From: Ignavibacteria bacterium RIFOXYB12_FULL_35_14
GTDB lineage: Bacteria; Bacteroidota; Ignavibacteria; Ignavibacteriales; Ignavibacteriaceae
Reading direction: 5' to 3'
Length of the DNA stretch: 64,000 bases
Assembly (NCBI GenBank): GCA_001803045.1
Contig: MHAR01000064.1
Location: 658-64,657, forward strand
Part shown: positions 14,779 through 53,994 of the stretch, piece by piece
How the letters are laid out: every line of letters starts with the position of its first letter
Numbering within the stretch: the first letter of the stretch is position 1
Program-made: the position numbers and the translations under genes
Notes under the pieces: model-generated
What the model was told of the DNA's origin: nothing
Databases searched by the model: none
Seen by the model: only the letters and a program-made list of their open reading frames with translations

Positions 14779-14794
14779 ATGAAAATAGAATGCC
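14779..14794 (-). promoter_or_regulatory. Sigma54-like promoter (a)
   Basis: Minus strand TGGCAT-TCTAT-TTTCA. It matches the -24 box well and the -12 box (TTGCA) except for one base. It points at the YHS-like gene about 50 bp downstream. The paired upstream site starts 62 bp further up (14856). One of six such pairs in the window. Confidence 0.55.
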
Positions 14795-14855
14795 AGAATT
14801 AATAGTTGAAAAACATCTGATAAATGAACTTTTTTTTGAAAAAGAGAATGTGGGA

Positions 14856-14892
14856 ATTTAAGTAGTTTAAAAATTTTAAAAGTTCTTAAAAA
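14856..14892. promoter_or_regulatory. Candidate activator-binding site (a), four phased TTAA-type boxes
   Basis: An AT-rich imperfect palindrome: ATTTAAGTAGTTTAAA, then TTTTAAAAGTTCTTAA. TTAA-type boxes recur every 9-10 bp. It shares this layout with sites at 15490, 23972, 28678, 43198 and 53958. It is interpreted as the upstream activating site of promoter (a). Confidence 0.5.
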
Positions 14893-15049
14893 AGAAAGAA
14901 ATTTCTTTGATTTGAGATTGAATATGTACAAGCCAAGGTATTTTAAAATTTAAGGCCCAACTAAGATGCAAACTTGAAAAGAGCGTGTTGACATCGAAGT
15001 TCTTGTATTTTTATGGATTAAAGCAGTGTCTTTTCTATTTCAGGTTTGA

Positions 15050-15325
15050 TTATTCATCTATAGCTGAAAGGTTCAATATCGTTGCTGTTTTAAAATCCTC
15101 TTTGGCTCCCTCAATATCACCAAGATTAAGTTTAACAGTTCCTCTATTAAAAAAACAACCCGCATCTCTTGGATATATTTCTATTGCCTTGCTGTAATCT
15201 TCCATTGCTTCCTTATATTTTCCAATATCGGCGTTTAATGTTCCTCTCTTTTTATATTCGAGAACATTAAAGGGATTTACAGATATAGCTCTTGTGCTAT
15301 TAGCAATGGCATCTGTTTCTTCCAT
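15050..15325 (-). CDS. Small TPR protein
   Basis: A 91-residue protein made of two to three tetratricopeptide repeats (NPFNVLEYKKRGTLNADIGK, then YPRDAGCFFNRGTVKLNLGD). It has no signal peptide or membrane helix, so it is probably cytosolic and acts in protein-protein contacts. AGAGGTG lies before the ATG. It stands alone between two long gaps, behind the sigma54-like promoter (b) at 15411-15426. Its partner is unknown. Confidence 0.78.
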   Translation of the reverse strand: MEETDAIANSTRAISVNPFNVLEYKKRGTLNADIGKYKEAMEDYSKAIEIYPRDAGCFFNRGTVKLNLGDIEGAKEDFKTATILNLSAIDE

Positions 15326-15410
15326 TTTGCACCTCTTGATATATTAACAGAAAATAGTATTTAAGCTTTACATACAGCTTTCCTGAATATTAGAATAGTA
15401 ATGCTGACAG

Positions 15411-15426
15411 TGAAAGAACAATGCCA
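15411..15426 (-). promoter_or_regulatory. Sigma54-like promoter (b)
   Basis: Minus strand TGGCAT-TGTTC-TTTCA, directed at the TPR gene with a leader of about 75-85 nt. The upstream site starts 64 bp further up. The remainder of the 323-bp gap between the TPR gene and merA shows nothing else I can recognise. Confidence 0.55.
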
Positions 15427-15489
15427 GAAGGGAAAACCTCACAAAATGTCTCAATAATGAAACTTTTAATTAAAGAAGAGAGGGACAAA

Positions 15490-15526
15490 TTTTAAGGAGT
15501 TTAAATATTTTTAAAGTTCTTTAAAG
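15490..15526. promoter_or_regulatory. Candidate activator-binding site (b)
   Basis: TTTTAAGGAGTTTAAA then TATTTTTAAAGTTCTTTAA, four TTAA-type boxes in phase. Over the first 26 positions it is identical to site (f) upstream of the cus operon at 53958-53994, which is hard to explain by chance. Confidence 0.55.
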
Positions 15527-15648: not shown

Positions 15649-17292
15649 TCACACAGCACAACAACTAAGTTTCTTAACATCTTTATCAAAACTTATAGCT
15701 GCTATTTTCACTCCCTCTGACAAAGTTAAATATGGATGGAACATTTGTTTTAATTCTTTTACTGTAATTCCGTATTTGATTGCAAGAGAAATTTCCATTA
15801 AAAGTTCTGAACCTTCTGAAGCAAGTATTCTTGCCCCGATTAATTTATCATTTTCTTTGTTGCGAATGAGTTTAATAAATCCTTTTGTATTTCTCGCTAC
15901 AAGAGAATGGGGAACATTTTTAAGTTGAATTGTTGAGACTTCGTATTCAATTTTATTTTCGTATGCTTGATTTTCATCCATTCCAACACCGGCTACTTGC
16001 GGGTCGGTAAATATAACCCACGGGAAAACCGAGTAGTCTTTTTTAATTAGACTTTCACCAAACATATTTGCAACTGCCAAAGAACCTTCATAAGCAGCGG
16101 AATAAACAAACAAGAACTCACCGGTTACATCTCCGGCTGAATAAATATTTGGAATTGATGTTTGCATATATTCATTTGTCTTAATGAAATCTTGCTTATG
16201 AAATTCAACTCCTACTTCTTCTAATCCAAAACCTTTAGTATTTCCTTTTCTGCCAGTTGCAACAAAGATATGAGTTCCTTCTATAATTTCGTAGTTATCT
16301 TTAATTGAAGCATTGACAATAACTTTTCCATTTTTATTTTCGACATATTTTATTTTTGCACCGGTTTTTATTTCTATTCCTTCTTCTTCGAAATATTCTC
16401 TTAATGTTTCGGTTACATCCGGCATTTCATCTGGAAGAATTCTGAATGAGCGTTGTAATATTGTAACTTTAGAACCGAGCCGTGCAAACATCTGAGCATT
16501 TTCCAAAGCGATGTATCTCCCACCAATTACAATTAAATGCTCGGGAAGTTCTTTTAAATCATACAAAGTTTCGTTTGTTAAATAGTTAATCTCTTTTAAA
16601 CCGGGAATATCCGGCACAAATGTGAATGAGCCGGTTGCAATCAATAATTTTTCTGCATAATATTTTTTACCATCTGCTTCAATTGTATTTTTGTCTATAA
16701 GCTTTCCGTACGCTTTAAGAATCGTTACATTCGAATCATCTTTTAAAACATTTACATATTTGTGCTCTCTTAACTCTTCCACTAATTCTGTTTTTTGATG
16801 GATAACTTCCTTAAAATTAATTTTATTATTGCCGGATTTTATTGAAGAAAAGTTTGGATGGTTGGCAATGTGAAATTGTTCTGCGGTTCTTATTAAAGTT
16901 TTAGATGGAACACAGCCTACATTTACGCAAGTACCGCCAATAGGTAAACCATCATTTATCATCAAAACTTTTTTCTCAAGTTCACTTGCTTTTATTGCAG
17001 CGGTAAAAGCGGCGGAACCTCCGCCAATGATAATCAAATCATAGTGATAAACTTTATTTTTATTCGATTCTATTTCATCAATTACCTTATAATGTCCGGT
17101 AGAATTAATGGCATCTATAATTTCTGATTTTGATACTTTGTCCGAATCGAACTCAAATTCACCTTTCCTTTCTGGATAATTTACTGCTTTAGAGATTATG
17201 CCCTCTAATTTAGAAACCTTTTTACTAATTGTTTGTGCACAATGTTCACAAGTCATTCCGTTAATTTCTAATTTTATTGTTTGAACAGACAT
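15649..17292 (-). CDS. merA: Mercuric reductase MerA with N-terminal HMA domain
   Basis: A 547-residue flavoprotein that reduces Hg(II) to Hg(0) with NADPH. Residues 1-70 form an HMA domain (GMTCEHC, Cys15 and Cys18). The FAD site IIIGGGSAAFTAA follows, then the redox disulfide GGTCVNVGCVPSK (Cys122, Cys127), the NAD(P) fold near 250 and the dimer domain. The C-terminal vicinal Cys pair (LSCCAV) is diagnostic for MerA and accepts Hg(II) from transport proteins. GGAG precedes the ATG. It is the last gene of the merR-merTP-merA operon. Confidence 0.95.
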   Translation of the reverse strand: MSVQTIKLEINGMTCEHCAQTISKKVSKLEGIISKAVNYPERKGEFEFDSDKVSKSEIIDAINSTGHYKVIDEIESNKNKVYHYDLIIIGGGSAAFTAAIKASELEKKVLMINDGLPIGGTCVNVGCVPSKTLIRTAEQFHIANHPNFSSIKSGNNKINFKEVIHQKTELVEELREHKYVNVLKDDSNVTILKAYGKLIDKNTIEADGKKYYAEKLLIATGSFTFVPDIPGLKEINYLTNETLYDLKELPEHLIVIGGRYIALENAQMFARLGSKVTILQRSFRILPDEMPDVTETLREYFEEEGIEIKTGAKIKYVENKNGKVIVNASIKDNYEIIEGTHIFVATGRKGNTKGFGLEEVGVEFHKQDFIKTNEYMQTSIPNIYSAGDVTGEFLFVYSAAYEGSLAVANMFGESLIKKDYSVFPWVIFTDPQVAGVGMDENQAYENKIEYEVSTIQLKNVPHSLVARNTKGFIKLIRNKENDKLIGARILASEGSELLMEISLAIKYGITVKELKQMFHPYLTLSEGVKIAAISFDKDVKKLSCCAV

Positions 17293-17304
17293 TATCGCTC
17301 CATC

Positions 17305-17934
17305 TTAATTTTCTTTTTCGTTTATTGTTTGAATCTTTTTCACTTTATAGCCAACTTTATTTTCAACTGCTTTCTTCAATTGTTCCGGCTGAACTTTTGT
17401 ATCATCAAATTGAACAAAAGCAATTCCGGTCTTATAAGATGATTCAGCACTCAAAACACCTTTTTCTGATTTAAGTGCATAATCAACCGATTGTTCGCAA
17501 CTTGTGCAGGTCATTCCTTCAATTTCAAGCTTGGCTTTTATTATGTGATTTGAATTAGCTGATAATTCGCTTTGAGATTCCGGGAAGAATGCTTGAGAGT
17601 AATAAGGAAATGTAATTAAAACAACAGCAATCACTGTTACTATCCATAAAAATGATTTAGAATTAATGAAGCTTTTCTTTGTTTCAACGTTTTCATCATC
17701 GCAAGCACATTCTATCTCATTTTTTTTCTTTGGTTTGTATGCATTATAAAAGGCATAACCGAGAATGATTGCCGTAAAAACAATAAAGTAAGGTCGCAGC
17801 GGTTCAAGAAAAGAAAATGTAGACGCAATACCGCTCAATCCGCCAAATATTGCTAATACCGGCGTAATACAGCATAATGAAGCAAGTAACGCTGTTACTA
17901 TTGCACTGTTTCTGAAAAATTTATTTGTTTCCAC
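17305..17934 (-). CDS. merT: Mercuric transport fusion protein MerTP
   Basis: A 209-residue protein from a GTG start at 17934 with AAGGAG in front. The N-terminal half is MerT-like: helix one carries LLASLCCITP (Cys21, Cys22), with two further helices and a cytosolic ECAC motif (Cys76, Cys78). The C-terminal 75 residues form an HMA/MerP domain with GMTCTSC (Cys143, Cys146). In other operons MerT and MerP are separate; MerTP fusions are known in Bacteroidota. It moves Hg(II) to MerA, encoded 12 nt downstream. Confidence 0.9.
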   Translation of the reverse strand: METNKFFRNSAIVTALLASLCCITPVLAIFGGLSGIASTFSFLEPLRPYFIVFTAIILGYAFYNAYKPKKKNEIECACDDENVETKKSFINSKSFLWIVTVIAVVLITFPYYSQAFFPESQSELSANSNHIIKAKLEIEGMTCTSCEQSVDYALKSEKGVLSAESSYKTGIAFVQFDDTKVQPEQLKKAVENKVGYKVKKIQTINEKEN

Positions 17935-17949
17935 AATAATCTCCTTCAG

Positions 17950-18360
17950 CTAAATAATTTTTTGTTCTATTACTTCAAGAATCGGGCATTCTTCGGTTGA
18001 CACTTCTTCGCAAACACACTGATTAATCAATTTTATCAAAACATTTTTAATATTCTTCAAGTCTTTTATTCTTTCTTCGATGTCTGTTAATTTATGTTCT
18101 GCTAAATGTTTTATATCTCCGCAAGTTGCAGTTGATTCAATTTTTAGATTCAATAATTCTTTTATTTCTTTTAATGTAAAACCAAGTTCTTTTGCTCTTT
18201 TTATGAATAATAATCTTCTCAAATCCAGCTCATCATAAAAACGATAGCGTGATTCCTTACGCTTAGGTTTAGGCATAATTTTTATTTTTTCATAATAGCG
18301 TAAAGTCTCTACGTTCACACCGATTTTTTCAGCTATTTCGCCAACTTTGTAATGTTCCAT
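17950..18360 (-). CDS. merR: MerR-family mercury-responsive regulator
   Basis: A 136-residue MerR protein. The N-terminal winged helix-turn-helix is YKVGEIAEKIGVNVETLRYY, followed by a dimerisation helix. Cys80, Cys115 (or Cys117) and Cys125 match the spacing of the three Hg(II)-binding cysteines of Tn501 MerR (82, 117, 126). It is the first gene of its operon and is transcribed with merTP and merA, unlike the divergent arrangement in Proteobacteria. It probably controls the promoter at 18389-18419, including its own gene. Confidence 0.9.
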   Translation of the reverse strand: MEHYKVGEIAEKIGVNVETLRYYEKIKIMPKPKRKESRYRFYDELDLRRLLFIKRAKELGFTLKEIKELLNLKIESTATCGDIKHLAEHKLTDIEERIKDLKNIKNVLIKLINQCVCEEVSTEECPILEVIEQKII

Positions 18361-18575: not shown

Positions 18576-20411
18576 TTATTCATACGCATTTAAAACATAC
18601 TGCTGAACCATACGATGCGTATTAAAAAAAGAAGCATTGATAGCAATTGCATGACGCATTATATTGATCCAATACTCCCTGCCAACATAAAAAGTAGGAA
18701 TTATTGCAAATTCTAATTTATCATATAAGGAACTTGCATCTTGCTGGTCGTTGCTTTCCGTATTCTGAGGAGTGCCAATAGACCATCCTGTAATGTCCTC
18801 GATGCATCCTTCAATCCACCAACCATCTAAAATACTTAAGGAAGGTACTCCATTATGTGCGGCTTTCATCCCTGATGTACCGGATGCTTCCTGTGGTTTG
18901 CGCGGCGTATTAAGCCATAAATCAACACCAGAAACTAATAGTTTAGCTAGCTCCTTATCGTAATTTTCAAGGTAAACAACTTTTATTTTGCCTTCTAACC
19001 ATTTCGATGCGATAATAATTTTCTTTATCAAGTCTTTACCCATTGCATCCTGTGGATGAGCTTTACCGGAAAAGATAAATTGCATTTTGCCGGCATCTTT
19101 GGCGATTTTTATTAACCTGTCAACGTCGGAAAAGACTAAATCCGCTCTTTTGTAAGCCGCTGCCCTTCGTGCAAATCCTATTGTAAGGGTTTCAGAATCT
19201 ATGTCAATGCCTGTTTTTTTGTTGACATAATCTATGAGTTTGTTCTTCGCTTCCTGGTGAGTATTCCATATTTCATCATTTGGGATGCTCAAGGCATATC
19301 GCAGGCTAAAAGGATCATTCTTCCAATCCGGAATATATTTATCATAGAGCCTTTTAAAACTGTCGCAAACCCAAGTAGAAGAATGTACACCATTTGTTAT
19401 AGATTCTATTGAATATTCGGGAAACATTAATTGAGATATCTCACCGTGTTTTTTTGCCACACCATTTATGTGCTTACTCTGATTTAAGGCAAGTAATGTC
19501 ATATTCAGCCGTTCTTCACCGCCGAGCATTCTTACTATGTCTGAAGGAATAAATTCTCTTAAAGCATTATCTACTAAATCATAAAAAAACTGGTCATGAC
19601 CTGCTGGTACGGGTGTATGAGTAGTAAATACGCAAAGCTCTCTCACTGCATCAAAATTCCATTCCGGATCTTTATTTCTTTTCATCTCATTTAATAATTC
19701 GAGAGTTAGAAAAGAAGCATGTCCTTCATTCATATGATATTTTTTTATTCCTGTATATCCCAGACTGTGAAGCATGCGCACACCGCCAACACCCAAGACA
19801 ATCTCTTGCAGCAATCTATACCATTGATCCCCGCCATAAAGATAATCGTTAAGCCCTTTATCATATTCACTATTTTCTTCTAAGTCCGTATCTAAAAAAA
19901 TTATAGGTATTGTATAACCGCTTACACCTACCACATCATACTGCCATGCCCGGATAAATACATCTCGGGTTTCTATTTTTATGTTGACTTTTTTCAGCAG
20001 GGGTTTTAAAAAATCCTTTGGATTCCATTGGACGGGTAATTCCTGCTGGTTTCCTTGTGCATCCAATCTTTGGATAAAATAACCTTTTTCATATAAAAGA
20101 GTAATCGCTACCAGGGGTACTTTTAGGTCTGCACAGGATTTTATAAAATCTCCCGCTAAAATACCCAGTCCGCCGCTATAAGTTGGGATTGAAGAATCAA
20201 TTCCAATTTCCATAGAAAAATAGGCAATCTTTCTTTCCTTTATTTTCTCAGCATCATACGACCTGTGTCTGTGCTTCAAATATTTATCTGGAGAATTCTG
20301 AAATTCGTTTTTGCATAAGTTTGAGCAGAAATAAAATATCTTACCCTTATATTCAAATTTAAATTCTTCTTTTGCAGTCATTCCACAAATGAGGTCTTTA
20401 ACCATTTTCAT
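18576..20411 (-). CDS. glgP: YHS-domain/alpha-glucan phosphorylase fusion (GT35)
   Basis: A 611-residue protein with two parts. Residues 1-45 are a YHS metal-binding domain (VKDLICGM, then FYFCSNLCKNEFQNSPDKYL). The remainder is an alpha-glucan phosphorylase of the short bacterial type: [49 protein letters not shown] and the PLP-lysine motif GTSGMKA (Lys516). It would phosphorolyse glycogen or maltodextrin to glucose 1-phosphate. A stand-alone homologue without YHS lies at 40166-41875. AAGGATG before the third-codon ATG suggests that Met3 may be the real start. The fusion implies metal-controlled activity; this is inference. Confidence 0.9.
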   Translation of the reverse strand: MKMVKDLICGMTAKEEFKFEYKGKIFYFCSNLCKNEFQNSPDKYLKHRHRSYDAEKIKERKIAYFSMEIGIDSSIPTYSGGLGILAGDFIKSCADLKVPLVAITLLYEKGYFIQRLDAQGNQQELPVQWNPKDFLKPLLKKVNIKIETRDVFIRAWQYDVVGVSGYTIPIIFLDTDLEENSEYDKGLNDYLYGGDQWYRLLQEIVLGVGGVRMLHSLGYTGIKKYHMNEGHASFLTLELLNEMKRNKDPEWNFDAVRELCVFTTHTPVPAGHDQFFYDLVDNALREFIPSDIVRMLGGEERLNMTLLALNQSKHINGVAKKHGEISQLMFPEYSIESITNGVHSSTWVCDSFKRLYDKYIPDWKNDPFSLRYALSIPNDEIWNTHQEAKNKLIDYVNKKTGIDIDSETLTIGFARRAAAYKRADLVFSDVDRLIKIAKDAGKMQFIFSGKAHPQDAMGKDLIKKIIIASKWLEGKIKVVYLENYDKELAKLLVSGVDLWLNTPRKPQEASGTSGMKAAHNGVPSLSILDGWWIEGCIEDITGWSIGTPQNTESNDQQDASSLYDKLEFAIIPTFYVGREYWINIMRHAIAINASFFNTHRMVQQYVLNAYE

Positions 20412-21945: not shown

Positions 21946-22899
21946 TTATTTATTTAAATAACTTCCCAAATACATATTTAAGGGCGAAGCACTTTCAAAA
22001 AAACCGGGATTCTGATTTAATAATTTTTCTGCAATTGAGAAGGCTTCGCCGGATTTAGATTTCTCACCCATTATTTTGTATAAGTTACCCAGCAAATAAT
22101 ATGCATCTGCATCATCTGGATTTTTTTCTATTTCAATCATTACAGATTTTACAGCGTCTTTATATCTTCCTTCGAGATATTCTTGATTAGCTTTAATAAG
22201 ATTTAACTGAGGAAGATCGGGTAAAAGTATTTCAAGCTGCTGAATATAACGCATGGATTTTTCCAGCTTGTTTTGACTTTGGTACAAAATGATTAATCCT
22301 TTTCTCGCTTCTATTAAATCAGGACTTACAACTAAAGATTTCTTAAAATAGATTTCAGCTTCAACAGTAAGCTCATTTTGAAGATAGAACATCCCGAGTG
22401 TTTCAAATATCTTCCCGTTTTGAGGCTCTATCTCAGCCGCTTTATTCAATACAATTACTGAATTATATAATTCTCCTGCTGTACCATAAACAATCCCAAG
22501 ATTAAAAAGTGCCATTGCATTATCGGGCTGAATGGTTATGGCCTTATTCAGAAAATCTTTAGCTTTATTAAAATCCCTTTGAATAGAATAGATTACTCCA
22601 AGGATGATTAAAGCATCCACATTATTTTTATCTAAGCTGAGAATTCTTTCATTATAAAATTTTATAGATGGAATATTTTGCTGTGCAATAGCAATTTGAG
22701 AAAGGTATGTTAAAGTTTTAATGTCTTCAGGGAATCGTTCTAGGTAATTTATAAACATTTGCTTGGCTTCATTAAAATTGTTTTCCTTGAAATAAGATTC
22801 ACCTTGGTTAAATAATGCTTCAGCTTTTTTATCACTTTGTGAATACATTCCTACTGAAAAGAAGGAAAGGATAACAAAGATTAAATATTTGTTTTTCAT
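21946..22899 (-). CDS. Exported TPR-repeat protein
   Basis: A 317-residue protein with an N-terminal signal peptide ([20 protein letters not shown]) and about eight tetratricopeptide repeats, e.g. [40 protein letters not shown] and [20 protein letters not shown]. It would be a periplasmic scaffold or assembly factor. It follows the SPFH lipoprotein gene and may be cotranscribed with it from the sigma54-like promoter (c), although a strong hairpin lies in between. No catalytic domain is visible. Confidence 0.82.
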
Positions 22900-22995: not shown

Positions 22996-23799
22996 TTACT
23001 TTTTTGATCCCATCCCTGTCTCAAGAATAATAGGAATACTATTGGCGCCTACTGGCACAAAATAGAAAGACGCATTGCCACTTTTCGCTAATTCCTTCTG
23101 AATATCAAGAGCGCGATATTGTAAATATGTCGGGGTTAGCGTGCTGTCAATTATTTTTTGAGCCGTCTGTTGACCTTGTGCTTCGATGATCTTGATTGTA
23201 GCATCTTTCTCGGCAATCTTTAGCTCGTATTCCTTCTGCAGCAGTTTTTGTTCAGTTGCCAGTTTTAGATCTGCAGCTTGTTTAACTCGCTCAGGATAAT
23301 CCACATGCTTGATCTCTACAGCATCCAGTTCAAGATGTTTGTTCTCAAGGTTCACTTTAAGCTGCGCTAAGATCGCATTTTGAATCTCGAGACTCTTCTT
23401 GGGGATATCCGTGTATCGGTACTGAGATAATACCGCTCTTGAGATAGAGCGAAATTGCTGCTGCACTACTTGTTCATAATATTGTTGTCCAATTTCTATA
23501 TGCAAGAAATACAGCTCATCAGGTTTTGGTCTCAGCCGAAGTGCCACCTCCACATCCATATGAAGGTCATCGTTCGAAAGAATGTCCACCTTCTCACTCT
23601 GGGTTTTCCAGCGGACGTCATACAATACGACACTGTTCCATACCCATTCCCATTTGAACTCATTACCGTAAACCGTGGTATCAACTCCACTATAGGTTCC
23701 CCAATGGAGCCCCTCATAACCACCCGGAATTGTTGTACCACAGCCTACCAGCAAAACAACTGCAAGCAGGCTAACGATAATTACATATTGTGCTTTCAT
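22996..23799 (-). CDS. SPFH/Band 7 domain lipoprotein
   Basis: A 267-residue protein. The signal is MKAQYVIIVSLLAVVLLVGC with a lipobox Cys, so it is a lipoprotein. The SPFH/prohibitin domain spans about 25-190 (DVEVALRLRPKPDELYFLHI, then SRAVLSQYRYTDIPKKSLEI), followed by a charged coiled-coil (LLQKEYELKIAEKDATIKII). SPFH proteins form large membrane rings and protect membranes or scaffold proteases. GGAGG precedes the start. It sits behind sigma54-like promoter (c). A second SPFH gene (42014-42877) sits behind promoter (e). Confidence 0.85.
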   Translation of the reverse strand: MKAQYVIIVSLLAVVLLVGCGTTIPGGYEGLHWGTYSGVDTTVYGNEFKWEWVWNSVVLYDVRWKTQSEKVDILSNDDLHMDVEVALRLRPKPDELYFLHIEIGQQYYEQVVQQQFRSISRAVLSQYRYTDIPKKSLEIQNAILAQLKVNLENKHLELDAVEIKHVDYPERVKQAADLKLATEQKLLQKEYELKIAEKDATIKIIEAQGQQTAQKIIDSTLTPTYLQYRALDIQKELAKSGNASFYFVPVGANSIPIILETGMGSKK

Positions 23800-23894: not shown

Positions 23895-23910
23895 AGAAAA
23901 TATAGTGCCA
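23895..23910 (-). promoter_or_regulatory. Sigma54-like promoter (c)
   Basis: Minus strand TGGCAC-TATAT-TTTCT. It has a perfect -24 box and a weaker -12 box. It lies about 95 bp upstream of the SPFH lipoprotein gene. The paired upstream site begins 62 bp away at 23972. Confidence 0.5.
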
Positions 23911-23971: not shown

Positions 23972-24008
23972 TTTTAAAGAGTTTAAATATTTTTAAGATT
24001 TTTAAGAA
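23972..24008. promoter_or_regulatory. Candidate activator-binding site (c)
   Basis: TTTTAAAGAGTTTAAAT then ATTTTTAAGATTTTTAAG. Same four-box layout as sites (b) and (f), with one change in the first 23 positions. It lies in a 340-bp gap that also holds the terminator of the next gene upstream. Confidence 0.5.
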
Positions 24009-24886: not shown

Positions 24887-25264
24887 TTATTGAACAATCA
24901 ATTTCCCTTTAATCATTCCCATTCCGCATTGAAAACCGTATTCACCCGGTTTATCAATTTTCAATTCAACTGGAATTGTTTTAAATGGAGTAAGAGTAGC
25001 TCTTTTATTAAAATCAGAGAATACTACCTCTTCAGTACAGGAAGCTGTTTCTTCTCTTATAAAATTTAATTTTATAGGTTTACCTGTCTCAAAGACTAAA
25101 ACATCGGGCGTATATCCGCCTTTAACTTTAATAACTGCTTCCTGTATTCCACTATCAGATACATCAACCTTTACTGCCTTCTTTTCTGAAAACCAGAAAT
25201 ACCAGGCAACCAAAGTCGATAAACCAAGTCCGCCTATGATTACTAAAATTTGATCGAGTGTCAT
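24887..25264 (-). CDS. Cupredoxin-domain membrane protein
   Basis: A 125-residue protein with one N-terminal membrane helix (LVIIGGLGLSTLVAWYFWF) and a cupredoxin-like domain: GYTPDVLVFETGKPIKLNFI, then ETASCTEEVVF and a closing YGFQCGMGMIKGKLIV. The Cys, Cys-Gly-Met and Met residues resemble a Cu site (plastocyanin-like, with His ligands replaced). GGAG precedes the ATG, and the gene starts 13 nt after copA. Such proteins are frequent partners of CopA ATPases and probably accept exported copper. Confidence 0.85.
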   Translation of the reverse strand: MTLDQILVIIGGLGLSTLVAWYFWFSEKKAVKVDVSDSGIQEAVIKVKGGYTPDVLVFETGKPIKLNFIREETASCTEEVVFSDFNKRATLTPFKTIPVELKIDKPGEYGFQCGMGMIKGKLIVQ

Positions 25265-28029: not shown

Positions 28030-28578
28030 TTACTTTTTCTGCTGATGAGACTCGTGTTCAGGTCTACCCATTGTCTTAGTAGAATCATTCATCATATTCA
28101 TATTATGATTCATCATTCCACCCTCCATCATTCCATCATTGTGCATCATCTTCATCATCATTTTGTGCATTTCGGGGTTGTCCATCATCATTTTGCACAT
28201 TTGCATCATACTTTCATTATCACCTTCAGCATGATCCATCATTTTATTCATCATCTGCATTCTCATTGTGCTATCAGCAGCAATTTTATCCATGCATTTT
28301 TGCATATCCTCATGCTGCATTGTCATTTTTGTTTCTTTCTTTTCGATCGGTTTTTCCTGGGCATTTACAGAAGCCACAAACGTGAAAAGAAATCCAAGAA
28401 TAAAAATTGCAATTAAATTTTTCTTTAGCATTATATCACCTTTTTGTTTTGGTTTGTAAAAAAATATTGTTTGAAAATTCATTACTGATTGCTTCAGGTT
28501 TCTTAATGTTTGCATTCTATATAGGGTTAAAACTAACATTAGAATACTTAGCCCTAAGATTAAAATCTCAGAAAACAT
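28030..28578 (-). CDS. Met-rich exported copper-binding protein with upstream in-frame membrane segment
   Basis: The core protein starts at MLKKNLIAIFILGFLFTFVA (ATG 28431, with an AGGTGA site) and has a signal peptide followed by very Met-rich repeats (MQMMNKMMDHAEGDNESMMQ, MMMKMMHNDGMMEGG). An in-frame ORF runs upstream to ATG 28578, which has an excellent AAGGAG site and lies just downstream of sigma54-like promoter (d). Its product begins MFSEILILGLSILMLVLTLY, a membrane helix. Either the two are made as a fusion or translation restarts at 28431. A periplasmic Cu(I) sponge for CopA is likely. Confidence 0.75.
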   Translation of the reverse strand: MFSEILILGLSILMLVLTLYRMQTLRNLKQSVMNFQTIFFYKPKQKGDIMLKKNLIAIFILGFLFTFVASVNAQEKPIEKKETKMTMQHEDMQKCMDKIAADSTMRMQMMNKMMDHAEGDNESMMQMCKMMMDNPEMHKMMMKMMHNDGMMEGGMMNHNMNMMNDSTKTMGRPEHESHQQKK

Positions 28579-28612: not shown

Positions 28613-28628
28613 CGCAATAGAGGTGCCA
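28613..28628 (-). promoter_or_regulatory. Sigma54 promoter (d), best match
   Basis: Minus strand TGGCAC-CTCTA-TTGCG. It is a near-perfect match to the sigma54 consensus (TGGCAC, 5 nt, TTGCW). The expected transcript would begin about 10 nt before the AAGGAG site of the ORF at 28578, so the leader is very short. It drives the Met-rich/copA/cupredoxin genes. Confidence 0.7.
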
Positions 28629-28677: not shown

Positions 28678-28714
28678 ATTTAAGATTCTTAAAAATTTTT
28701 AAATATGTTAAGCG
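28678..28714. promoter_or_regulatory. Candidate activator-binding site (d)
   Basis: ATTTAAGATTCTTAAAA then ATTTTTAAATATGTTAAG, four TTAA-type boxes. It starts 50 bp upstream of the -24 box, about one helical turn closer than in the other five copies. The following sequence up to 28930 shows nothing else I can recognise. Confidence 0.45.
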
Positions 28715-42964: not shown

Positions 42965-43096
42965 TTATTTGCAGCAGCCATGACCACTTTTATGATTATG
43001 ATCATTTGGTATTGGCTGCGGTTTTGGTCTCTTTGAATTAAAGTAAACATAAAAACCTACAACGATTGCTGCTGTTGTTATAATTAACCAAAGCAT
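42965..43096 (-). CDS. Cys-Cys-tailed membrane peptide (43 aa)
   Basis: From ATG 43096, preceded by AAAGGAG: MLWLIITTAAIVVGFYVYFN, then SKRPKPQPIPNDHNHKSGHG and CCK. One membrane helix, a Pro-rich linker, a DHNH segment and a final Cys-Cys-Lys. It resembles the peptide at 14330-14431 in layout and the remnant at 41912-41983 in sequence. It is the first gene behind sigma54-like promoter (e), directly before the SPFH gene. The histidines and paired cysteines suggest metal binding on one side of the membrane. Confidence 0.65.
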   Translation of the reverse strand: MLWLIITTAAIVVGFYVYFNSKRPKPQPIPNDHNHKSGHGCCK

Positions 43097-43119: not shown

Positions 43120-43135
43120 TAGATTATGAATGCCA
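43120..43135 (-). promoter_or_regulatory. Sigma54-like promoter (e), weak -12 box
   Basis: Minus strand TGGCAT-TCATA-ATCTA. The -24 box matches the other copies, the -12 box is poor. It is included because a full upstream site starts 63 bp away and the distance to the AAAGGAG site of the 43-residue gene is similar to that in copy (d). Confidence 0.4.
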
Positions 43136-43197
43136 AAAAACAAGCCAAAGGAGATGTTTGTTTTTTATAGTGAAATGGGTCTTAATATATTTTTGTC

Positions 43198-43234
43198 TTT
43201 TAAGGAATTTAAATTCTATTAAAAATTTTAAGAG
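43198..43234. promoter_or_regulatory. Candidate activator-binding site (e)
   Basis: TTTTAAGGAATTTAAA then TTCTATTAAAAATTTTAAG; four TTAA-type boxes as in (a)-(d) and (f). It lies in the 221-bp gap between the membrane spermidine-synthase-like gene and the peptide at 42965. Confidence 0.5.
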
Positions 43235-46866: not shown

Positions 46867-47205
46867 TTAAAGCGCTTCAGCTCCGCGTTGTTTTCTTCGG
46901 ATGCTAATTGCTTCAGATATATCCGAAACAAAAATTTTACCGTCACCTTTGCTTCCGGTATGCGCGTTATCAAGAACTACTTTTACAAATTTTTCAAGAT
47001 CATCATCCTCACAAACAAGCTCAATTTTTATGCTGCTGCTGTATCTTTCGCAGTATTTAATTGAAAGCTTTGAATTTTCCGGATCAGACCAGCCGCCAAT
47101 CATGGATACATCAATTACCGTCATTCCTCTCGCTCCGGCTGTTTCCAATGCTGCAATAACTTTATCGGCTACTGATGGTCTTATATATGCTTTTATTTCT
47201 TTCAT
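46867..47205 (-). CDS. P-II-like regulatory protein next to cusA
   Basis: A 112-residue P-II protein: MKEIKAYIRPSVADKVIAAL, GARGMTVIDVSMIGGWSD, ELVCEDDDLEKFVKVVLDNA, KIFVSDISEAISIRRKQRG. It keeps the GDGKIFV strand and the C-terminal RRKQRG region of GlnB/GlnK, but the T-loop is shortened and lacks the uridylylation Tyr. A CusA-linked P-II protein recurs in metal-RND operons of many Bacteroidota. It may gate the efflux pump in response to a nucleotide or metal. AGGAAG precedes the start. Confidence 0.82.
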   Translation of the reverse strand: MKEIKAYIRPSVADKVIAALETAGARGMTVIDVSMIGGWSDPENSKLSIKYCERYSSSIKIELVCEDDDLEKFVKVVLDNAHTGSKGDGKIFVSDISEAISIRRKQRGAEAL

Positions 47206-47226: not shown

Positions 47227-50200
47227 TTAATTTTCTAAAACTCTTCCTTCTAACTTTGCCTGCTTTTTCATTTCCCACGATCTCCACAGATAGTAAATAA
47301 CAGGATAGACAGCCAACTCCATCATAACAGAAGTGACTACACCGCCAACCATCGGGGCAGCGATGCGTTTCATTACATCTGCACCTGCACCGGTACTCCA
47401 CATTATTGGAAGAAGTCCGGCTATTATAACTGAAGCAGTCATAATTTTAGGTCGAACCCGTTTAACAGCTCCATAATGGATAGCGTCTTTCAGTCCTTTC
47501 AATCCGGTTAGCAATCCTTTTTCTTTCCATTCTTTTAAGGCGACATCAAGATAGAGTAACATAACTACGCCGGTTTCCGCATCTAATCCCGCAAGGGCAA
47601 TTATACCCACCCAAACAGCAATACTTATATTGTAACCGAGCAGATAGAGAAGCCAAAAAGCACCGACAAGAGAGAATGGAACGGCAAGAAATACGATTCC
47701 AACTTTTACTAAAGATTTTGTATTCAGATAAATGATTACGAAGATAATAAACAGAGTCATCGGTATAACATATAATAGTCTTTCCTGAGCACGCAACATA
47801 TATTCGTATTCGCCGCTCCATGTAATGTTATAGCCTGCAGGAAGTTTAATTTTTTCTAATATAATTTTTTGTGCATTTTTTACATAAGTACCAACGTCAA
47901 TATTTTTTATATCAACATAGACCCAAGCGTTGGGGCGTGTATCTTCACTTCTAACAACCATAGGACCTTTGCGCGGTGTAATAGTTGCAAGTTGCCCAAT
48001 TGGAACTTGCTCACCGATTGGTGTAGGCACCAACACTTTCTTCATCGCTTCGATATTATCTCTTAGCTCCCGGCTGTAACGAAGATTAACAGTGTATCTT
48101 TCCAATCCTTCAACCGTAGTTGTAACAGCCATGCCGCCCATAGCAGTTTGAATAACATTTTGAATGTCATCAATAGTTAAGCCATAACGGGCTGCTTCTT
48201 TTCTGTTGATTTCTATATCGAGATAATTTCCTCCGACAGCTCTTTCAGCAAAGGCACTTAAAGTTCCGGGAACGGTTCGCATCACGGATTCAACTTCTTT
48301 ACCAATATCCTGCAACGTTAATAAATCAGGTCCGGATATTTTTATTCCAACTGGAGTTTTGATTCCCGTGCTGAGCATGTCCGTTCTTGTTTTGATTGGC
48401 ATTGTCCAGGCATTAGTAACACCGGGGAACTGAATAGCTCTGTCCATTTCATCAATTAATTTTTGAACAGTCATTCCGGAGCGCCATTCATTTTCGGGCT
48501 TCAACATTATTGTAGTTTCGACCATGTCAAGCCCTGCCGGATCGGTTGCTGTTTCTGCACGTCCTATTTTTCCAAATACGTGGTGAACTTCGGGAAATGT
48601 TTTAATGATTTTATCGGTCTGTTGTAATATTTCTTTTGCCTTAGTGATTGACATACCGGGCATTGTTGTGGGCATGTAAAGTAAATCGCCTTCATAAAGC
48701 GGGGGCATAAATTCAGAGCCAATATTTTTGAAAGGGATTATTGTTATACCGAGAATAATTAAAACAGCAACGAGAACAGCTTTATTGTGCTTGATTACAA
48801 AATCAACAACAGGATGATATATTTTAATAAGAAATCTATTTATAGGATTTCTTTCTTCCGGTAAAATCTTTCCGCGAATCCAGTATCCCATTAAAATAGG
48901 AACAAGAGTAACTGAAAGAATTGCGGCGGCTGCCATTGAATATGTTTTTGTAAATGCCAGCGGTTTAAATAATCTTCCTTCCTGCGCTTCGAGTGTGAAT
49001 ACCGGGATGAACGAAACAGTTATAACTAACAGGGAATAGAAAAGGGAAGGTCCGACTTCCTTTGATGCATCAATTATAAGCTGCCATCTGTCTTTTCTTT
49101 CTTCAGGTGGTTTAAGTGCTTCGTGTTCGATGTGCTTATGTGCGTTTTCAATCATGATTATTGCAGCATCCACCATTGCGCCTATTGCTATTGCAATTCC
49201 ACTCAAGGACATTATGTTAGCATTAATACCCTGCCAGCGCATAACGATAAATGCCATGAGTATAGCTGTGGGAAGCGTAATGATTGCCACAAAAGCACTT
49301 CGGGCATGAAGCAAAAATAAAATACATATCAACGCTACAAAGAGAATTTCTTCTACGAGTTTTTCTTTTAGGGTATCTATTGCTCGTTCAATTAAACCAG
49401 CGCGGTCATAAACAGCTTCAATTTTTACATCTGAAGGAAGACCGGGTTTTAGTTCTTCCAATTTTTGTTTTACTTGTTCGATTACCTTGAGTGCGTTCTG
49501 TCCGTACCTCATGACAATAATTCCACCGACAACTTCGCCCTCGCCATTCGATTCAGCCAATCCTCTTCTCATCAAAGGACCAATCGTAACATCTGCAACA
49601 TCCTTCAGATAAACTGGTGTGTTCGTCATTTTATTTACCATTAAAGGAATGTTCTGGATATCTTCAACAGATTTGATGTATCCGAGTCCACGCACCATAA
49701 ATTCCATTTCGCCCATTTCAATTACTTCGCCGCCGACGTCGTTATTGGATTTTTTAATTGCCATATCAATCATAGAAAGCGGAATGTTGTAAGCAAGTAA
49801 TTTTGTTGGGTCAACAGTAACTTGATATTGTTTAACATATCCGCCAATGCTTGCAACTTCTGCAACTCCATCTACAGCCGATAGAGCATATTTAAGATAC
49901 CAATCTTGAATAGAGCGAAGCTCCTGAAGCGATCTTGTATCGGAAGTAATTTTATATTCGTAAACCCAGCCAACGCCTGTAGCATCCGGTCCTAAAGTAG
50001 GAACAATATTATTTGGAAGCCGCTGCTGTGCATAGTTTAAATACTCAAGCACTCTGCTTCTTGCCCAATAGATATCTGTCCCGTCTTCGAAGATTACATA
50101 AACTAACGAATACCCAAAGAAGGAATATCCTCGCACTACTTTAGAACCCGGTACTGAAACCATGGCTGTTGTTAAAGGATAAGTAACCTGATCTTCGACT

Positions 50201-50379
50201 ATTCTTGGCGATTGCCCCGGATATTGCGTATAAATAATAACCTGAACATCGCTTAAATCCGGTATGGCATCTACCGGTGTGCTTAGCATTGAATAGATTC
50301 CGACACCAATTAAAAATAAAGTCGCAAGGATTACCATGAACTTATTTCTAATGGAAAACTCTATAATTTTTTCTAACAT
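47227..50379 (-). CDS. cusA: Heavy-metal RND efflux transporter, CusA type
   Basis: A 1050-residue inner-membrane RND pump of the HME family. Twelve helices are arranged in the usual 1+5 pattern, with two large periplasmic loops. Motif GAMVDAAIIMIENAHKHIE in helix 4 carries the proton-relay Asp. Met residues around TDMLSTGIKTPVGIKI and a PIGEQVPIGQLA stretch agree with the Cu(I)/Ag(I) subgroup. It ends with a basic KKQAKLEGRVLEN. Upstream partner genes encode the adaptor (cusB) and outer-membrane factor (cusC). Confidence 0.95.
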   Translation of the reverse strand: MLEKIIEFSIRNKFMVILATLFLIGVGIYSMLSTPVDAIPDLSDVQVIIYTQYPGQSPRIVEDQVTYPLTTAMVSVPGSKVVRGYSFFGYSLVYVIFEDGTDIYWARSRVLEYLNYAQQRLPNNIVPTLGPDATGVGWVYEYKITSDTRSLQELRSIQDWYLKYALSAVDGVAEVASIGGYVKQYQVTVDPTKLLAYNIPLSMIDMAIKKSNNDVGGEVIEMGEMEFMVRGLGYIKSVEDIQNIPLMVNKMTNTPVYLKDVADVTIGPLMRRGLAESNGEGEVVGGIIVMRYGQNALKVIEQVKQKLEELKPGLPSDVKIEAVYDRAGLIERAIDTLKEKLVEEILFVALICILFLLHARSAFVAIITLPTAILMAFIVMRWQGINANIMSLSGIAIAIGAMVDAAIIMIENAHKHIEHEALKPPEERKDRWQLIIDASKEVGPSLFYSLLVITVSFIPVFTLEAQEGRLFKPLAFTKTYSMAAAAILSVTLVPILMGYWIRGKILPEERNPINRFLIKIYHPVVDFVIKHNKAVLVAVLIILGITIIPFKNIGSEFMPPLYEGDLLYMPTTMPGMSITKAKEILQQTDKIIKTFPEVHHVFGKIGRAETATDPAGLDMVETTIMLKPENEWRSGMTVQKLIDEMDRAIQFPGVTNAWTMPIKTRTDMLSTGIKTPVGIKISGPDLLTLQDIGKEVESVMRTVPGTLSAFAERAVGGNYLDIEINRKEAARYGLTIDDIQNVIQTAMGGMAVTTTVEGLERYTVNLRYSRELRDNIEAMKKVLVPTPIGEQVPIGQLATITPRKGPMVVRSEDTRPNAWVYVDIKNIDVGTYVKNAQKIILEKIKLPAGYNITWSGEYEYMLRAQERLLYVIPMTLFIIFVIIYLNTKSLVKVGIVFLAVPFSLVGAFWLLYLLGYNISIAVWVGIIALAGLDAETGVVMLLYLDVALKEWKEKGLLTGLKGLKDAIHYGAVKRVRPKIMTASVIIAGLLPIMWSTGAGADVMKRIAAPMVGGVVTSVMMELAVYPVIYYLWRSWEMKKQAKLEGRVLEN

Positions 50380-50429
50380 TTTTTCTCCAATATTAAATTC
50401 GAAATACTACTTCTAAAGAAACTCATCCC

Positions 50430-50614: not shown

Positions 50615-52321
50615 TTATTTAACTTTAAATCCATTCTCAATTAGATTACTCTTTGCTTTCTCAAGAGAAACTTCTTTTAATTCCATATTACATATCGGGC
50701 ATTTGCCCGGCTTATCTGATATAACATTCCAATCCATTTGATCTTGAAAAACTTTTCCATCTTTATTCTCGTCTATTGCGCTTAAGTCGATTACACCTTC
50801 ACGCACAAGGGTACGATCCTCATGGTTTATTTCAGTTTTATTTGGTTTTGTTTTTTCGTTCTTCTTAGGTTCATCTTTCCCGCGCATTTCCATCTTGCTG
50901 TGATCTTGCGGTTTTTGTTCATCCTTAGGTTTGCCTGCCGTGCCGGTAGGTAAACTCATATCCATTCCTTCGTGACCTCTCATCTGTTGTATCGCCGCTT
51001 TAAGATTGCTTTCCGAATCAATTAAGAACTGAGAAGAGACAACTATTTTTTCGCCGTCTTTAATACCTTCAAGCACTTGCACCAATCCATCGGAGGCTAC
51101 TCCTAACTTAACATCTCTAGGATCGAAATAACCACCGCCGAGGGACATTACAGCAATTGTCCTTTCACCGGTGCGGATGATTGCTTGATCCGGCACAACA
51201 ACTGCTTCAACTGAAATTGGCGAAACGAGTTTTACAGTTGCAAACATTCCCGGTTTAAAATCGTAATTCGAAGTGTTCCTCACTTCCGTTCTAACTTTTA
51301 TCGTTTTAGTTTCTTCATTTAGGTAGGGATAGATGTACGTTACTATTCCTTTATAAGTTTTGCCCGGCAGATAGGAAAGCTCTAGATCAACTTTTTGACC
51401 GAGTTTAATCCAGGGTAAATCAACTTGATAAACATCCGCCATCACCCAAACATTTGAAAGATCGGCTACTTTATAGAGTTCCATTCCAGCCATAATTTGC
51501 TGCCCCAGAAAAACCATCTTATCTACAACCGTTCCATTTACCGGCGAATAAATTGTAAGCGTCTTCTTTGGTGCATTATTTTTTTCAATTTCGTTAATGT
51601 CTTTTTCCGAAATATCCCAATACAGCAATCTTCGTTTAGCGCTGTTGACTAATTCCTGCGCGCCATTTTTAACGTTGTCTGAACTATTAGAAACTTTCTT
51701 TAAGTAACGAATTGCTTGCAGATATTCTTCCTGTGTACTAACAAGTTCCGGGCTGTAAATTTCAAACAGCGACTGTCCTTTGCTTATATATTTGCCGGTG
51801 TAATCAACGAACAATTTTTCTACCCAGCCCATAACTTTGGTCGTAACAGTAGTAACTTTTGTTTCGTCGTAATCAACTTTTCCCGTAGTTCTAATTACAT
51901 TATTTAGTTTTTGTTTTTTTACCGTTTCTATTTTTACACCAATATTTTGAATGGTAACCGGATCAATCTTAATGCCTTCGACATTTTCATCACCCTCATA
52001 AACAGGTACTAAATCCATCCCGCAATCGGGCGCGGTTCCTGGTTTATCTGAAGTAAACCAGGGATGCATCGGATCTTGATAGTAAGCAATTTTCTTCTGA
52101 CCGCTTCCGCTTTTTTGCTCTTCATAAACCGGAACGAAGTCCATTCCATCCGGAGCTTTTTTCGGGGTGGGGGAGGTATTCTCGGGATTCATAGGATCCT
52201 GATAGTATAAAATTTTTCTTTCTTTATCATCCGAAGATGAGCTTATTCCTCCAAGGAAAAATTTTCCAATTGCTAAGCCAATTACTAAAAAGATGATTCC
52301 GCTAATAATTATTTTTTTCAT
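50615..52321 (-). CDS. cusB: RND periplasmic adaptor CusB with three heavy-metal-binding modules
   Basis: A 568-residue membrane-fusion protein. After a membrane anchor come two HMBD motifs (YYQDPMNPENTSPTP and YYQDPMHPWFTSDKPG, with CGMDLVPVYEG), a barrel-sandwich and alpha-hairpin (about residues 150-300), beta-barrel domains, a Met/His linker (MRGHEGMDMSLPT, DHSKMEMRGKDE) and a third C-terminal module VREGVIDLSAIDENKDGKVF with KCPICNMELKEV. That last module is a near copy of the secreted protein at 12609-13019. A palindrome at 50934-50950 lies in the linker. It links CusA to CusC and presents metal to the pump. Confidence 0.93.
   Translation of the reverse strand: MKKIIISGIIFLVIGLAIGKFFLGGISSSSDDKERKILYYQDPMNPENTSPTPKKAPDGMDFVPVYEEQKSGSGQKKIAYYQDPMHPWFTSDKPGTAPDCGMDLVPVYEGDENVEGIKIDPVTIQNIGVKIETVKKQKLNNVIRTTGKVDYDETKVTTVTTKVMGWVEKLFVDYTGKYISKGQSLFEIYSPELVSTQEEYLQAIRYLKKVSNSSDNVKNGAQELVNSAKRRLLYWDISEKDINEIEKNNAPKKTLTIYSPVNGTVVDKMVFLGQQIMAGMELYKVADLSNVWVMADVYQVDLPWIKLGQKVDLELSYLPGKTYKGIVTYIYPYLNEETKTIKVRTEVRNTSNYDFKPGMFATVKLVSPISVEAVVVPDQAIIRTGERTIAVMSLGGGYFDPRDVKLGVASDGLVQVLEGIKDGEKIVVSSQFLIDSESNLKAAIQQMRGHEGMDMSLPTGTAGKPKDEQKPQDHSKMEMRGKDEPKKNEKTKPNKTEINHEDRTLVREGVIDLSAIDENKDGKVFQDQMDWNVISDKPGKCPICNMELKEVSLEKAKSNLIENGFKVK
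50934..50950. repeat. Palindromic repeat inside cusB
   Basis: CCTGCCG-TGC-CGGTAGG with one mismatch in the stem. It encodes LPTGTAGK in the Met/His linker. Related to the palindrome at 43921-43942. Confidence 0.45.
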
Positions 52322-52341
52322 TTGATCTCCAATAAATAGAA

Positions 52342-53619
52342 CTATTTTAATTTATCATTTACTTGTTCAAGGGTTAAACCAACAGCTTGTTCAAGCTGTG
52401 CCTGACTTTGAAGAAAATTCATTTTAGACATGTAAAAATCAAGTTCAGACATCAGAAGCATTCTGTAGGCATCAATGAGCATTAAGAATTCTGTTTTACC
52501 TGTTTGATATGCAGCAATGGTGGATTGTAGTGTTTGTTCAGCTTGAGGAATAACAGAGTTTTTATATAGCTCGGTTAAGTTTCTATTAGTTTCAATATTT
52601 ACTAAAGAGTTCTGAACATCAGAAGCAACCATATTTTTCATAAGATTATACTGTTCTTCGGCAGTTTTAATATTAAGTTCGTTCTCTTCGACTTTACCTG
52701 TGTATTTAGAACTTGACCAAAATGCAAGCGGTACATTTACTCCAACCATGAATGACCAGAAATCTTTGGTAGTTTCAGTCATATCTTTATACATCAATCT
52801 TGCCATAATATCCGGGTAGTATTCTAATTTAGAAGCATCCAATTCTGATTTATACATATCAATATTGTAATTCATGCTTTTTAATTCGGGGCGATTTTCA
52901 ACCGCCAGTTGAAACAACTGATCAAAATTCCATCGTGGTAATGTATCAGCCGGTTCGGGAACATAACCTAATTGATCATTAGCGGGTCGGCTTAAAATTG
53001 TATTTATCATTGTTTGAATATCGGTTCTTTCCTTTTCAAGATTGACTCCTTCATTTATCAAAACAGAAAGTTCTGTTTGAGCTCTTAAGATATCCGGTTG
53101 TTTGCCCATCCCCAGTTCATATTGTTTTCTCGTAATTTCTAAAAACTGCCTTAATAAATCCTGGTTCTCCAGATTGATTTCTATTTTCTTTTGCACCAGA
53201 TACAACTCGTAATAATAATTTTTTAATTGTTTGATAATTTGTTTTTCTAATGCAAAGTATTGCTGCTCAACCATGTTAGCATTGTTTGAAGCTGCTGTTG
53301 TCATTGCATTTATCTTGCCGGGAAAAGGAAACATCTGCTGAACGAAGTAATCGGTTTCCATATTATTTTTTATTGGATTAGGGAATGATTGAATTGGAAG
53401 TTGAAAAAATTCAATTCCAACTTGCGGAGCATCCCAGGATGATGATTGATCAATTTTTGTTCTTGCAGCATTGGTTGTATTACGTGCAGCTTTTAATTGT
53501 GGATTGTTTTGAAGAGTCTCTTTTATCAACTCATCCAGACTAATGTAGTTTTTAGTCTGAGGATAGGCAATAAACGTGAATAGAATTAACAAAGTAAAAA
53601 ATCTCAAAAAAAAATTCAT
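52342..53619 (-). CDS. cusC: Outer-membrane efflux factor, TolC/CusC type
   Basis: A 425-residue TolC-family protein with signal peptide (MNFFLRFFTLLILFTFIAYP) and two repeats rich in helical heptads (SLDELIKETLQNNPQLKAAR and WNFDQLFQLAVENRPELKSM), ending in LTLEQVNDKLK. This forms the trimeric exit duct for CusBA. TATGGAG precedes the ATG. It is the first large gene of the cus operon behind the sigma54-like promoter (f), after a 31-residue ORF. Confidence 0.92.
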   Translation of the reverse strand: MNFFLRFFTLLILFTFIAYPQTKNYISLDELIKETLQNNPQLKAARNTTNAARTKIDQSSSWDAPQVGIEFFQLPIQSFPNPIKNNMETDYFVQQMFPFPGKINAMTTAASNNANMVEQQYFALEKQIIKQLKNYYYELYLVQKKIEINLENQDLLRQFLEITRKQYELGMGKQPDILRAQTELSVLINEGVNLEKERTDIQTMINTILSRPANDQLGYVPEPADTLPRWNFDQLFQLAVENRPELKSMNYNIDMYKSELDASKLEYYPDIMARLMYKDMTETTKDFWSFMVGVNVPLAFWSSSKYTGKVEENELNIKTAEEQYNLMKNMVASDVQNSLVNIETNRNLTELYKNSVIPQAEQTLQSTIAAYQTGKTEFLMLIDAYRMLLMSELDFYMSKMNFLQSQAQLEQAVGLTLEQVNDKLK

Positions 53620-53749
53620 TTTATCTCCATAAAGAATTTGTTTAATCGAACTGACTGATATAAAAATAAAATAATAAGTATTAAGCTCATACTGTTATTT
53701 CTCAAAGGTGTGAAGAAACCATTTTGAACCAAATTGATATAGTCAGCAT

Positions 53750-53845
53750 TCATTTATTTTTTTTAAGAATTACAATAAAAATCTTAGCCAAAATTGCTGT
53801 AAATATTAAGTAACACACTAACCATATAAAACCATTTTCAAACAT
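53750..53845 (-). CDS. Small hydrophobic membrane peptide (31 aa)
   Basis: From ATG 53845: MFENGFIWLVCYLIFTAILA, then KIFIVILKKNK. A single helix with one Cys and a basic end. It is the first ORF behind sigma54-like promoter (f), as are small peptides behind promoters (d) and (e). The ribosome site is weak (AAGTGATG). It could be a small regulator or a leader peptide for the cus operon. The remainder of the 411-bp gap shows nothing else. Confidence 0.45.
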   Translation of the reverse strand: MFENGFIWLVCYLIFTAILAKIFIVILKKNK

Positions 53846-53881
53846 TTTTATAACATCACTTTTCAATTTTTGATATTCTTA

Positions 53882-53897
53882 TGAAACTATAATGCCA
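53882..53897 (-). promoter_or_regulatory. Sigma54-like promoter (f) of the cus operon
   Basis: Minus strand TGGCAT-TATAG-TTTCA, same form as copies (a) and (b). The upstream site starts 61 bp further up. It lies about 265 bp before cusC and 37 bp before the 31-residue ORF, just downstream of the regulator gene end (54031). Confidence 0.6.
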
Positions 53898-53957
53898 AAC
53901 GGAAATGTGGTGTTTTTTAATGGAAACGAGCTTTTGGATTTAATTTTAGAATAGAGT

Positions 53958-53994
53958 TTTTAAGGAGTTTAAATATTTTTAAAATTCTTAAAAA
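53958..53994. promoter_or_regulatory. Candidate activator-binding site (f), most symmetric copy
   Basis: TTTTAAGGAGTTTAAA then TATTTTTAAAATTCTTAA. TTAA boxes begin at positions 3, 12, 22 and 31 of the site, giving two adjacent dyads. It is identical to site (b) over the first 26 positions. It lies 37 bp beyond the stop codon of the NtrC-type regulator gene. Confidence 0.6.

Follow-up and report, generated by a model that had tools for sequence, protein, structure and literature searches.

Do the copper and silver genes clustered in the genome of Ignavibacteria bacterium RIFOXYB12_FULL_35_14 answer to one switch? The stretch analyzed, 64,000 nucleotides of contig MHAR01000064.1 (hereafter the window, to which all coordinates refer), is one piece of a 4.1-Mb genome in 95 contigs. 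The original prediction placed six sigma-54-like elements on its minus strand and assigned the genes behind them to a regulon under the NtrC-type regulator encoded beside cus. We find that the six elements are very probably enhancer-plus-promoter units of one sigma-54 regulon, in which one neighboring regulator probably turns on the copper/silver defense as a whole. Six upstream activating sequences (UAS) in the cluster, the domains of the regulator, an RpoN encoded in the genome, linkage of UAS to the regulator gene, helical phasing, and recurring target genes all favor the predicted regulon.

Tandem Palindromes Upstream of Six Gene Units

An AT-rich site had been proposed upstream of each element. 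It is present at all six, but it is not single: each UAS consists of two tandem palindromes, YTTAA-N5-TTAAR, whose starts lie 19 bp apart, and each of the 12 palindromes matches this pattern in 9 or 10 of 10 letters. A gene follows each UAS closely, on the same strand.

14857..14890, minus strand: UAS, two tandem palindromes
15491..15524, minus strand: UAS, two tandem palindromes
23973..24006, minus strand: UAS, two tandem palindromes
28679..28712, minus strand: UAS, two tandem palindromes
43199..43232, minus strand: UAS, two tandem palindromes
53959..53992, minus strand: UAS, two tandem palindromes

The mean pairwise identity among the six UAS is 78%, where composition alone predicts 0.40. 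Outside them, identity is close to the chance level of 0.31 (spacers, 0.32–0.36; upstream flanks, 0.30; post-promoter DNA, 0.35). Thus, the pieces are conserved and not the promoter as a whole, which argues against recent copying of entire promoters.

The UAS are also rare. In leave-one-out scans of both strands of the window, each UAS, when held out, came 4th to 10th of all positions, and with a matrix built from all six, the UAS scored 34.6–47.2; the runners-up, at 21.7 and 18.5, are two of the same six read as reverse complements. The genome-wide matrix scan called for with the original prediction (150 of 6355 first-look candidates scored) returned the six UAS, at 30.3–36.6 bits and all in the cluster, as the only strong matches, followed by reverse-complement views of the same places and then by a place outside the window at 15.6 bits. 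Random occurrence in nonmetal DNA was, therefore, not seen for the UAS: besides the low score of that next place, a phased sigma-54 element accompanies 0 of 20 own-genome matches outside the window (loci were taken for 30 of the 63 listed matches). These weak outside places were rejected on this ground as extra regulon members.

Putative Sigma-54 Promoter Elements

All six TGGCA elements occur on the minus strand where they had been predicted, and the proximal element reads TGGCAY-N5-TT[TG]C. The predicted TGGCAY-N5-TTTCA-like form is clear at five sites, which fit TGGCAY-N5-TTKCN (TGGCATTCTATTTTCA, TGGCATTGTTCTTTCA, TGGCACTATATTTTCT, TGGCACCTCTATTGCG, and TGGCATTATAGTTTCA), but not at 43120, where the −12 part is poor and there are two candidate registers. 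A gap is the distance between the end of the 43-bp UAS window and the T of TGGCA.

14780..14795, minus strand: putative sigma-54 promoter, gap 58, before the unit of the YHS-like 103-amino acid (aa) gene
15411..15426, minus strand: putative sigma-54 promoter, gap 61, before the TPR gene 15050-15325
23895..23910, minus strand: putative sigma-54 promoter, gap 59, before the SPFH gene 22996-23799 and the TPR gene 21946-22899
28613..28628, minus strand: putative sigma-54 promoter TGGCACCTCTATTGCG, gap 47, before the Met-rich/copA/cupredoxin genes
43120..43147, minus strand: two overlapping sigma-54 candidates, before a Cys-Cys peptide and an SPFH gene
53882..53897, minus strand: putative sigma-54 promoter, gap 58, before a 31-aa open reading frame (ORF) and the cus genes

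At 43120, the register first proposed, TGGCATTCATAATCTA (43135-43120), has a gap of 60 and the poor −12; the overlapping candidate TGGCTTGTTTTTTGGC (43147-43132) begins 12 bp upstream, with a gap of 48 and a better −12. Both registers are in phase, and the same doubling recurs at the orthologous sites of two relative loci, L003 and L004.

At five of the six window units, the best sigma-54 match is significant when compared with shuffles of the DNA downstream (p ≤ 0.015). This comparison, which scored the DNA 20–85 bp away from each UAS against a sigma-54 consensus not derived from the training sites, covered 22 places that the window-only UAS model had located in the window and in relatives; 14 of the 22, those five included, had p ≤ 0.03. 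Across the genome, exact −24/−12 matches number 23, vs. 11 for the reversed pattern, and 5 of the 23 fall in the window. Held-out −24/−12 elements ranked between 4th and 1445th in the leave-one-out scan of the window.

Two Quantized Spacings

A wider scan, over the window plus 33 loci from relatives, yielded 54 pairs of UAS and sigma-54 element. Deduplication was per strand, so that a small number of UAS appear in two views; a duplicate locus, L015, was dropped, and five of the window's six units are included, as the sixth scored under the sigma-54 threshold of 12. Of the 54 pairs, 48 have gaps of 46–50 or 58–61 bp. Among the pairs whose UAS were outside training, 24 of 30 fall in these two classes, compared with 3.8 expected under a uniform distribution over 30–100. 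The means of the two classes are 47.6 and 58.8, and the difference of 11.2 bp is about one helical turn. A Rayleigh test of the 30 nontraining pairs at a period of 10.5 gave p ~1.5e-6, a generous value, as are the other p values, since pairs from related species are not independent. Reversed sequence yielded one pair at the same thresholds vs. 68 raw counts on the real sequence, the latter including training sites, L015, and overlapping registers.

In sigma-54 regulons, activator sites with dyad symmetry are expected about 80–150 bp upstream; all six units here carry paired palindromes at phased gaps. For the regulons of enhancer-binding proteins (EBPs) in Clostridiales, passages of PMC6615313 place most UAS 100–250 bp from the promoter. 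The two quantized spacings found here offer a natural test case for helical phasing in enhancer-dependent transcription.

The Candidate Activator and Its Linkage to the UAS

Next to the cus unit lie the genes of a two-component system.

54031..55422, minus strand: candidate activator, NtrC-type response regulator (receiver, Sigma54_activat, HTH_8)
55468..57582, minus strand: partner histidine kinase (HAMP, PAS, HisKA, HATPase) with a hydrophobic N-terminal region (by eye)

The output part of the regulator is Sigma54_activat plus HTH_8, with no winged-helix domain of the OmpR/PhoB type among its Pfam hits. A solved fragment of ZraR is among its PDB matches, and its closest named relatives, with a best identity of 90%, come from Ignavibacteriales assemblies. 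A kinase of the CorSR type would be expected to have a periplasmic sensor domain and one TM helix; in this kinase, about the first 300 residues appear strongly hydrophobic by eye, and no sensor domain is among the Pfam matches. RpoN is encoded in the genome, as indicated by one PF00309 match and, in the same frame, ARRTVAKYR, which we take to be the RpoN box.

We searched 59 genomes, the source genome included, with the window-only UAS model (E ≤ 0.05) and counted as an orthologue of the regulator any protein with at least 56% identity, which is found in 24 of the other genomes and not in 34. The 58 other genomes hold 57 UAS places: 21 within 30 kb of an orthologue (a limit set after the tables had been seen), 14 elsewhere in orthologue genomes, and 22 in genomes that lack it. 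Counting only places of at least 20 bits leaves 13, 1, and 1, respectively. Position relative to the regulator gene thus discriminates, unlike bare UAS presence, which was rejected as a cross-genome test; since presence at E ≤ 0.05 does not track the orthologue, most unlinked hits look like background. A phased sigma-54 element accompanies 4 of 6 linked places vs. 2 of 21 others among the 27 checked. The one other genome of the same genus has neither the orthologue nor the site.

The recognition helix of the regulator points in the same direction. With a matrix derived from the window's six UAS only, a phased pair was found at 14 of 18 loci whose regulator carries the helix S[LIV]PTLY[ST]KI vs. 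4 of 61 other loci. All four pairs outside the class lie close behind the regulator gene (within ~110 bp), which softens the border of the class. Bacteroidales orthologues with a different recognition helix were rejected as users of the switch: no in-phase pair was found, and inspection by eye near sigma-54-like matches at 24 of their loci revealed no shared UAS.

Autoregulation of the kinase/regulator operon was also considered for the window and rejected; a sigma-54-like element, TGGCATATCGATTGCT, is present at 57983-57968, but no strong UAS precedes it. A weak UAS-like stretch at 57575-57617 (score 12.9) overlaps the start codon of the kinase gene. In relatives (L002/L172, L004, and L051/L177), a UAS lies at the kinase start, with the sigma-54 element directed toward a divergent small YHS-like ORF and a DUF5676 gene, and the window stretch is possibly a relic of the UAS of such an operon.

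Genes Behind the Proposed Switch

The target genes named in the original prediction (YHS/DUF1573, TPR, SPFH, Met-rich/copA, Cys-Cys peptide/SPFH, and cus) were found behind the elements.

14432-14743: YHS-like 103-aa gene, behind promoter 14780..14795
14330..14431, minus strand: Cys-Cys peptide, 33 aa, hydrophobic N terminus, ending KSCCKH, with a subthreshold PF12669 match
28030-28578, 25277-28000, and 24887-25264: Met-rich gene, copA, and cupredoxin gene, behind promoter 28613..28628
42965..43096, minus strand: His-rich Cys-Cys peptide, 43 aa, hydrophobic N terminus, ending HNHKSGHGCCK
42014-42877: SPFH gene, behind the candidates at 43120..43147
53750-53845: 31-aa hydrophobic ORF, between promoter 53882..53897 and cusC
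52342-53619, 50615-52321, 47227-50379, and 46867-47205: cusC, cusB, cusA, and a gene for a PII-like protein, behind promoter 53882..53897

The unit of promoter 14780..14795 also holds genes for a Por-secretion protein, DUF1573, and HMBD. Several targets recur behind the element in relatives: cusC-cusB in 12 loci, the His-rich Cys-Cys peptide in 6, the Met-rich gene with copA in 4, a small YHS-like ORF with DUF5676, divergent from the kinase, in 3, and the SPFH gene in 2. For the TPR gene (91 aa) and the YHS-like gene (103 aa), this was seen in a single relative, L171.

The best PDB matches of CusA are proteins named CusA, and it aligns Met at three places of E. coli CusA, presumably the Cu/Ag relay of that pump; CopA has Cu ATPases as best matches and carries CPC. 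From these matches and motifs, the metal of the regulon is probably Cu+/Ag+.

Two kinds of small genes accompany the switch. Short Cys-Cys peptides with a hydrophobic N terminus (by eye) and tails of the GHGCC, GYGCC, or DCCK-like kind, several of them His-rich, stand behind it in the window (both peptides) and in L175, L177, L185, L004, L007, L019, and L171. In the window and in seven relative loci (L172, L174, L176, L179, L180, L182, and L184), an ORF of 31–38 aa with one hydrophobic stretch (by eye) lies between cusC and its promoter; the product may be a small Cus pump subunit. The regulon thereby marks uncharacterized small genes as likely to encode copper/silver proteins.

Elsewhere in the cluster, the gene for the PII-like protein (PF00543; 46867-47205) directly follows cusA, two carbohydrate phosphorylase genes lie at 18576-20411 and 40166-41875, one with an N-terminal YHS domain, and none of the top UAS matches belongs to a merR-merT-merA-like operon at 15649-18360.

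Weighing the Interpretation

Several observations weigh against a single sigma-54 regulon under the neighboring regulator. At 43120, the sigma-54 match is not significant against shuffles (p = 0.315). Taken alone, the −24/−12 motif shows no enrichment in the window (14 matches with at most one mismatch vs. 11.1 ± 2.8 in shuffles), and the consensus alone was rejected as a criterion. The L1 loop of the regulator reads GSFTGS, not GAFTGA, the sequence given as the conserved signature of that loop in a passage of PMC7175178; orthologues with at least 72% identity carry GAFTGS or GSFTGS. Across genomes, the 13 strong linked places come from only 5 genomes, a linked place occurs in only 9 of 24 orthologue genomes, and UAS presence at E ≤ 0.05 fails to separate genomes with the orthologue from those without (15/24 vs. 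16/34). Four of the 18 loci of the helix class are without a phased pair; at locus L014, from Stygiobacter electus, the one named isolate among the regulator loci, the helix class is present and no phased pair was found. An off-phase control was positive in 7 of these 18 loci and in 1 of the 61 others, although in 6 of those 7 its score was lower than that of the in-phase pair, and the recognition-helix pattern was unmatched in 21 of the 61. All cross-species counts are confounded by phylogeny. Finally, the genome encodes 16 strong Sigma54_activat proteins, the candidate and 15 others, so the case for this regulator as the activator depends on its linkage to the sites and on the correlation with the recognition helix, itself confounded by phylogeny.

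Those 16 proteins open the way to an alternative in which the promoters are real but another activator, or several, binds the UAS and the neighboring regulator is a bystander. The 14 of 35 UAS places in orthologue genomes that lie far from the orthologue would fit it. We consider it unlikely, because UAS matches cluster near orthologues of the neighboring regulator, several relatives have the site directly downstream of the regulator gene and before cus, and site presence tracks the class of its recognition helix.

The palindromes are very AT-rich and the −12 is TTT, not TTG, in four of the five clear window promoters, as might be expected if the pair were the site of a sigma-70-type activator or a nucleoid protein, with TGGCA part of the same non-sigma-54 element. 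We judge this very improbable: TGGCA-N5-TT stands at two quantized distances across species, near-perfect sigma-54 copies such as TGGCATATTGATTGCA and TGGCATCTAAATTGCA exist, and an AAA+ activator is linked while RpoN is in the genome. Location of all six in one cluster could also reflect a recent duplication of a promoter cassette, in which case their similarity would say nothing of coregulation. The drop in identity from 0.78 in the UAS to 0.30–0.36 in spacers and flanks, the two spacing classes, and the recurrence of the element in other species, ahead of the same types of gene, leave this explanation scarcely credible. The regulon of one sigma-54 activator remains our preferred interpretation.

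From the sites, their phasing, and their neighbors, we infer how this switch could work. A metal signal, most likely Cu+/Ag+, would activate the membrane kinase (55468-57582), which would phosphorylate the NtrC-type regulator (54031-55422). Dimers of the regulator would bind the tandem palindromes, centered at about −84/−103 or −95/−114 from the predicted start, the DNA would loop, and the AAA+ ring would contact RpoN-RNA polymerase at the −24/−12 element. Joint expression of cusCBA, the Met-rich/copA/cupredoxin genes, the SPFH, TPR, and YHS/DUF1573/HMBD genes, and the Cys-Cys peptides would follow. A wider generalization is possible rather than probable: a single sigma-54 activator, dedicated to this task and acting through a phase-locked tandem enhancer, may govern Cu/Ag homeostasis in Ignavibacteriales, with a regulon that includes undescribed metal-handling microproteins (a membrane-anchored His-rich Cys-Cys family and the ~32-aa pre-cusC peptide, which could be a Cus subunit).

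Comparison with Known Systems

The original prediction knew of no earlier account of such a Cu/Ag regulon in this lineage. Among the results listed by a full-text search covering part of the literature, none describes Cu/Ag genes of Ignavibacteria as a sigma-54 regulon, but sigma-54 control of copper genes is already known in Myxococcus. As far as that search shows, the regulon in this lineage, its UAS, the spacing rule, and the microproteins are new; they amount to a concrete regulon with defined predicted activator sites in a little-studied lineage.

CusRS of E. coli is an OmpR-type, sigma-70 two-component system next to cusCBA. The system described here likewise lies beside cusCBA but differs in the AAA+ sigma-54 domain of its regulator. 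Closer in kind is CorSR of Myxococcus xanthus, a sigma-54 copper two-component system whose role was shown with a deletion mutant (PMC3707914). In both, a receiver-Sigma54_activat-HTH_8 regulator stands beside copper genes; the curA operon, as described in passages of that paper, includes a YHS-bearing copA, a cupredoxin gene, and four putative sigma-54 promoters along its length. CorSR, from a different phylum, controls one operon, and those passages describe no UAS, whereas the present regulon, read from sequence alone, would comprise six separate units, including cusCBA, with tandem UAS. ZraSR (HydHG) of E. coli is also a metal-linked system with a sigma-54 response regulator, but the targets given in passages of PMC7657598 are zraP, zraSR, and mgtA, under zinc and envelope stress, and no Cus or CopA target appears there. 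The Clostridiales EBP regulons, likewise derived by comparative genomics, resemble ours in joining inverted-repeat UAS to −24/−12 elements; according to passages of PMC6615313, fifteen groups share TGT-N10-12-ACA, whereas here TTAA-N5-TTAA palindromes come in pairs at two short quantized gaps.

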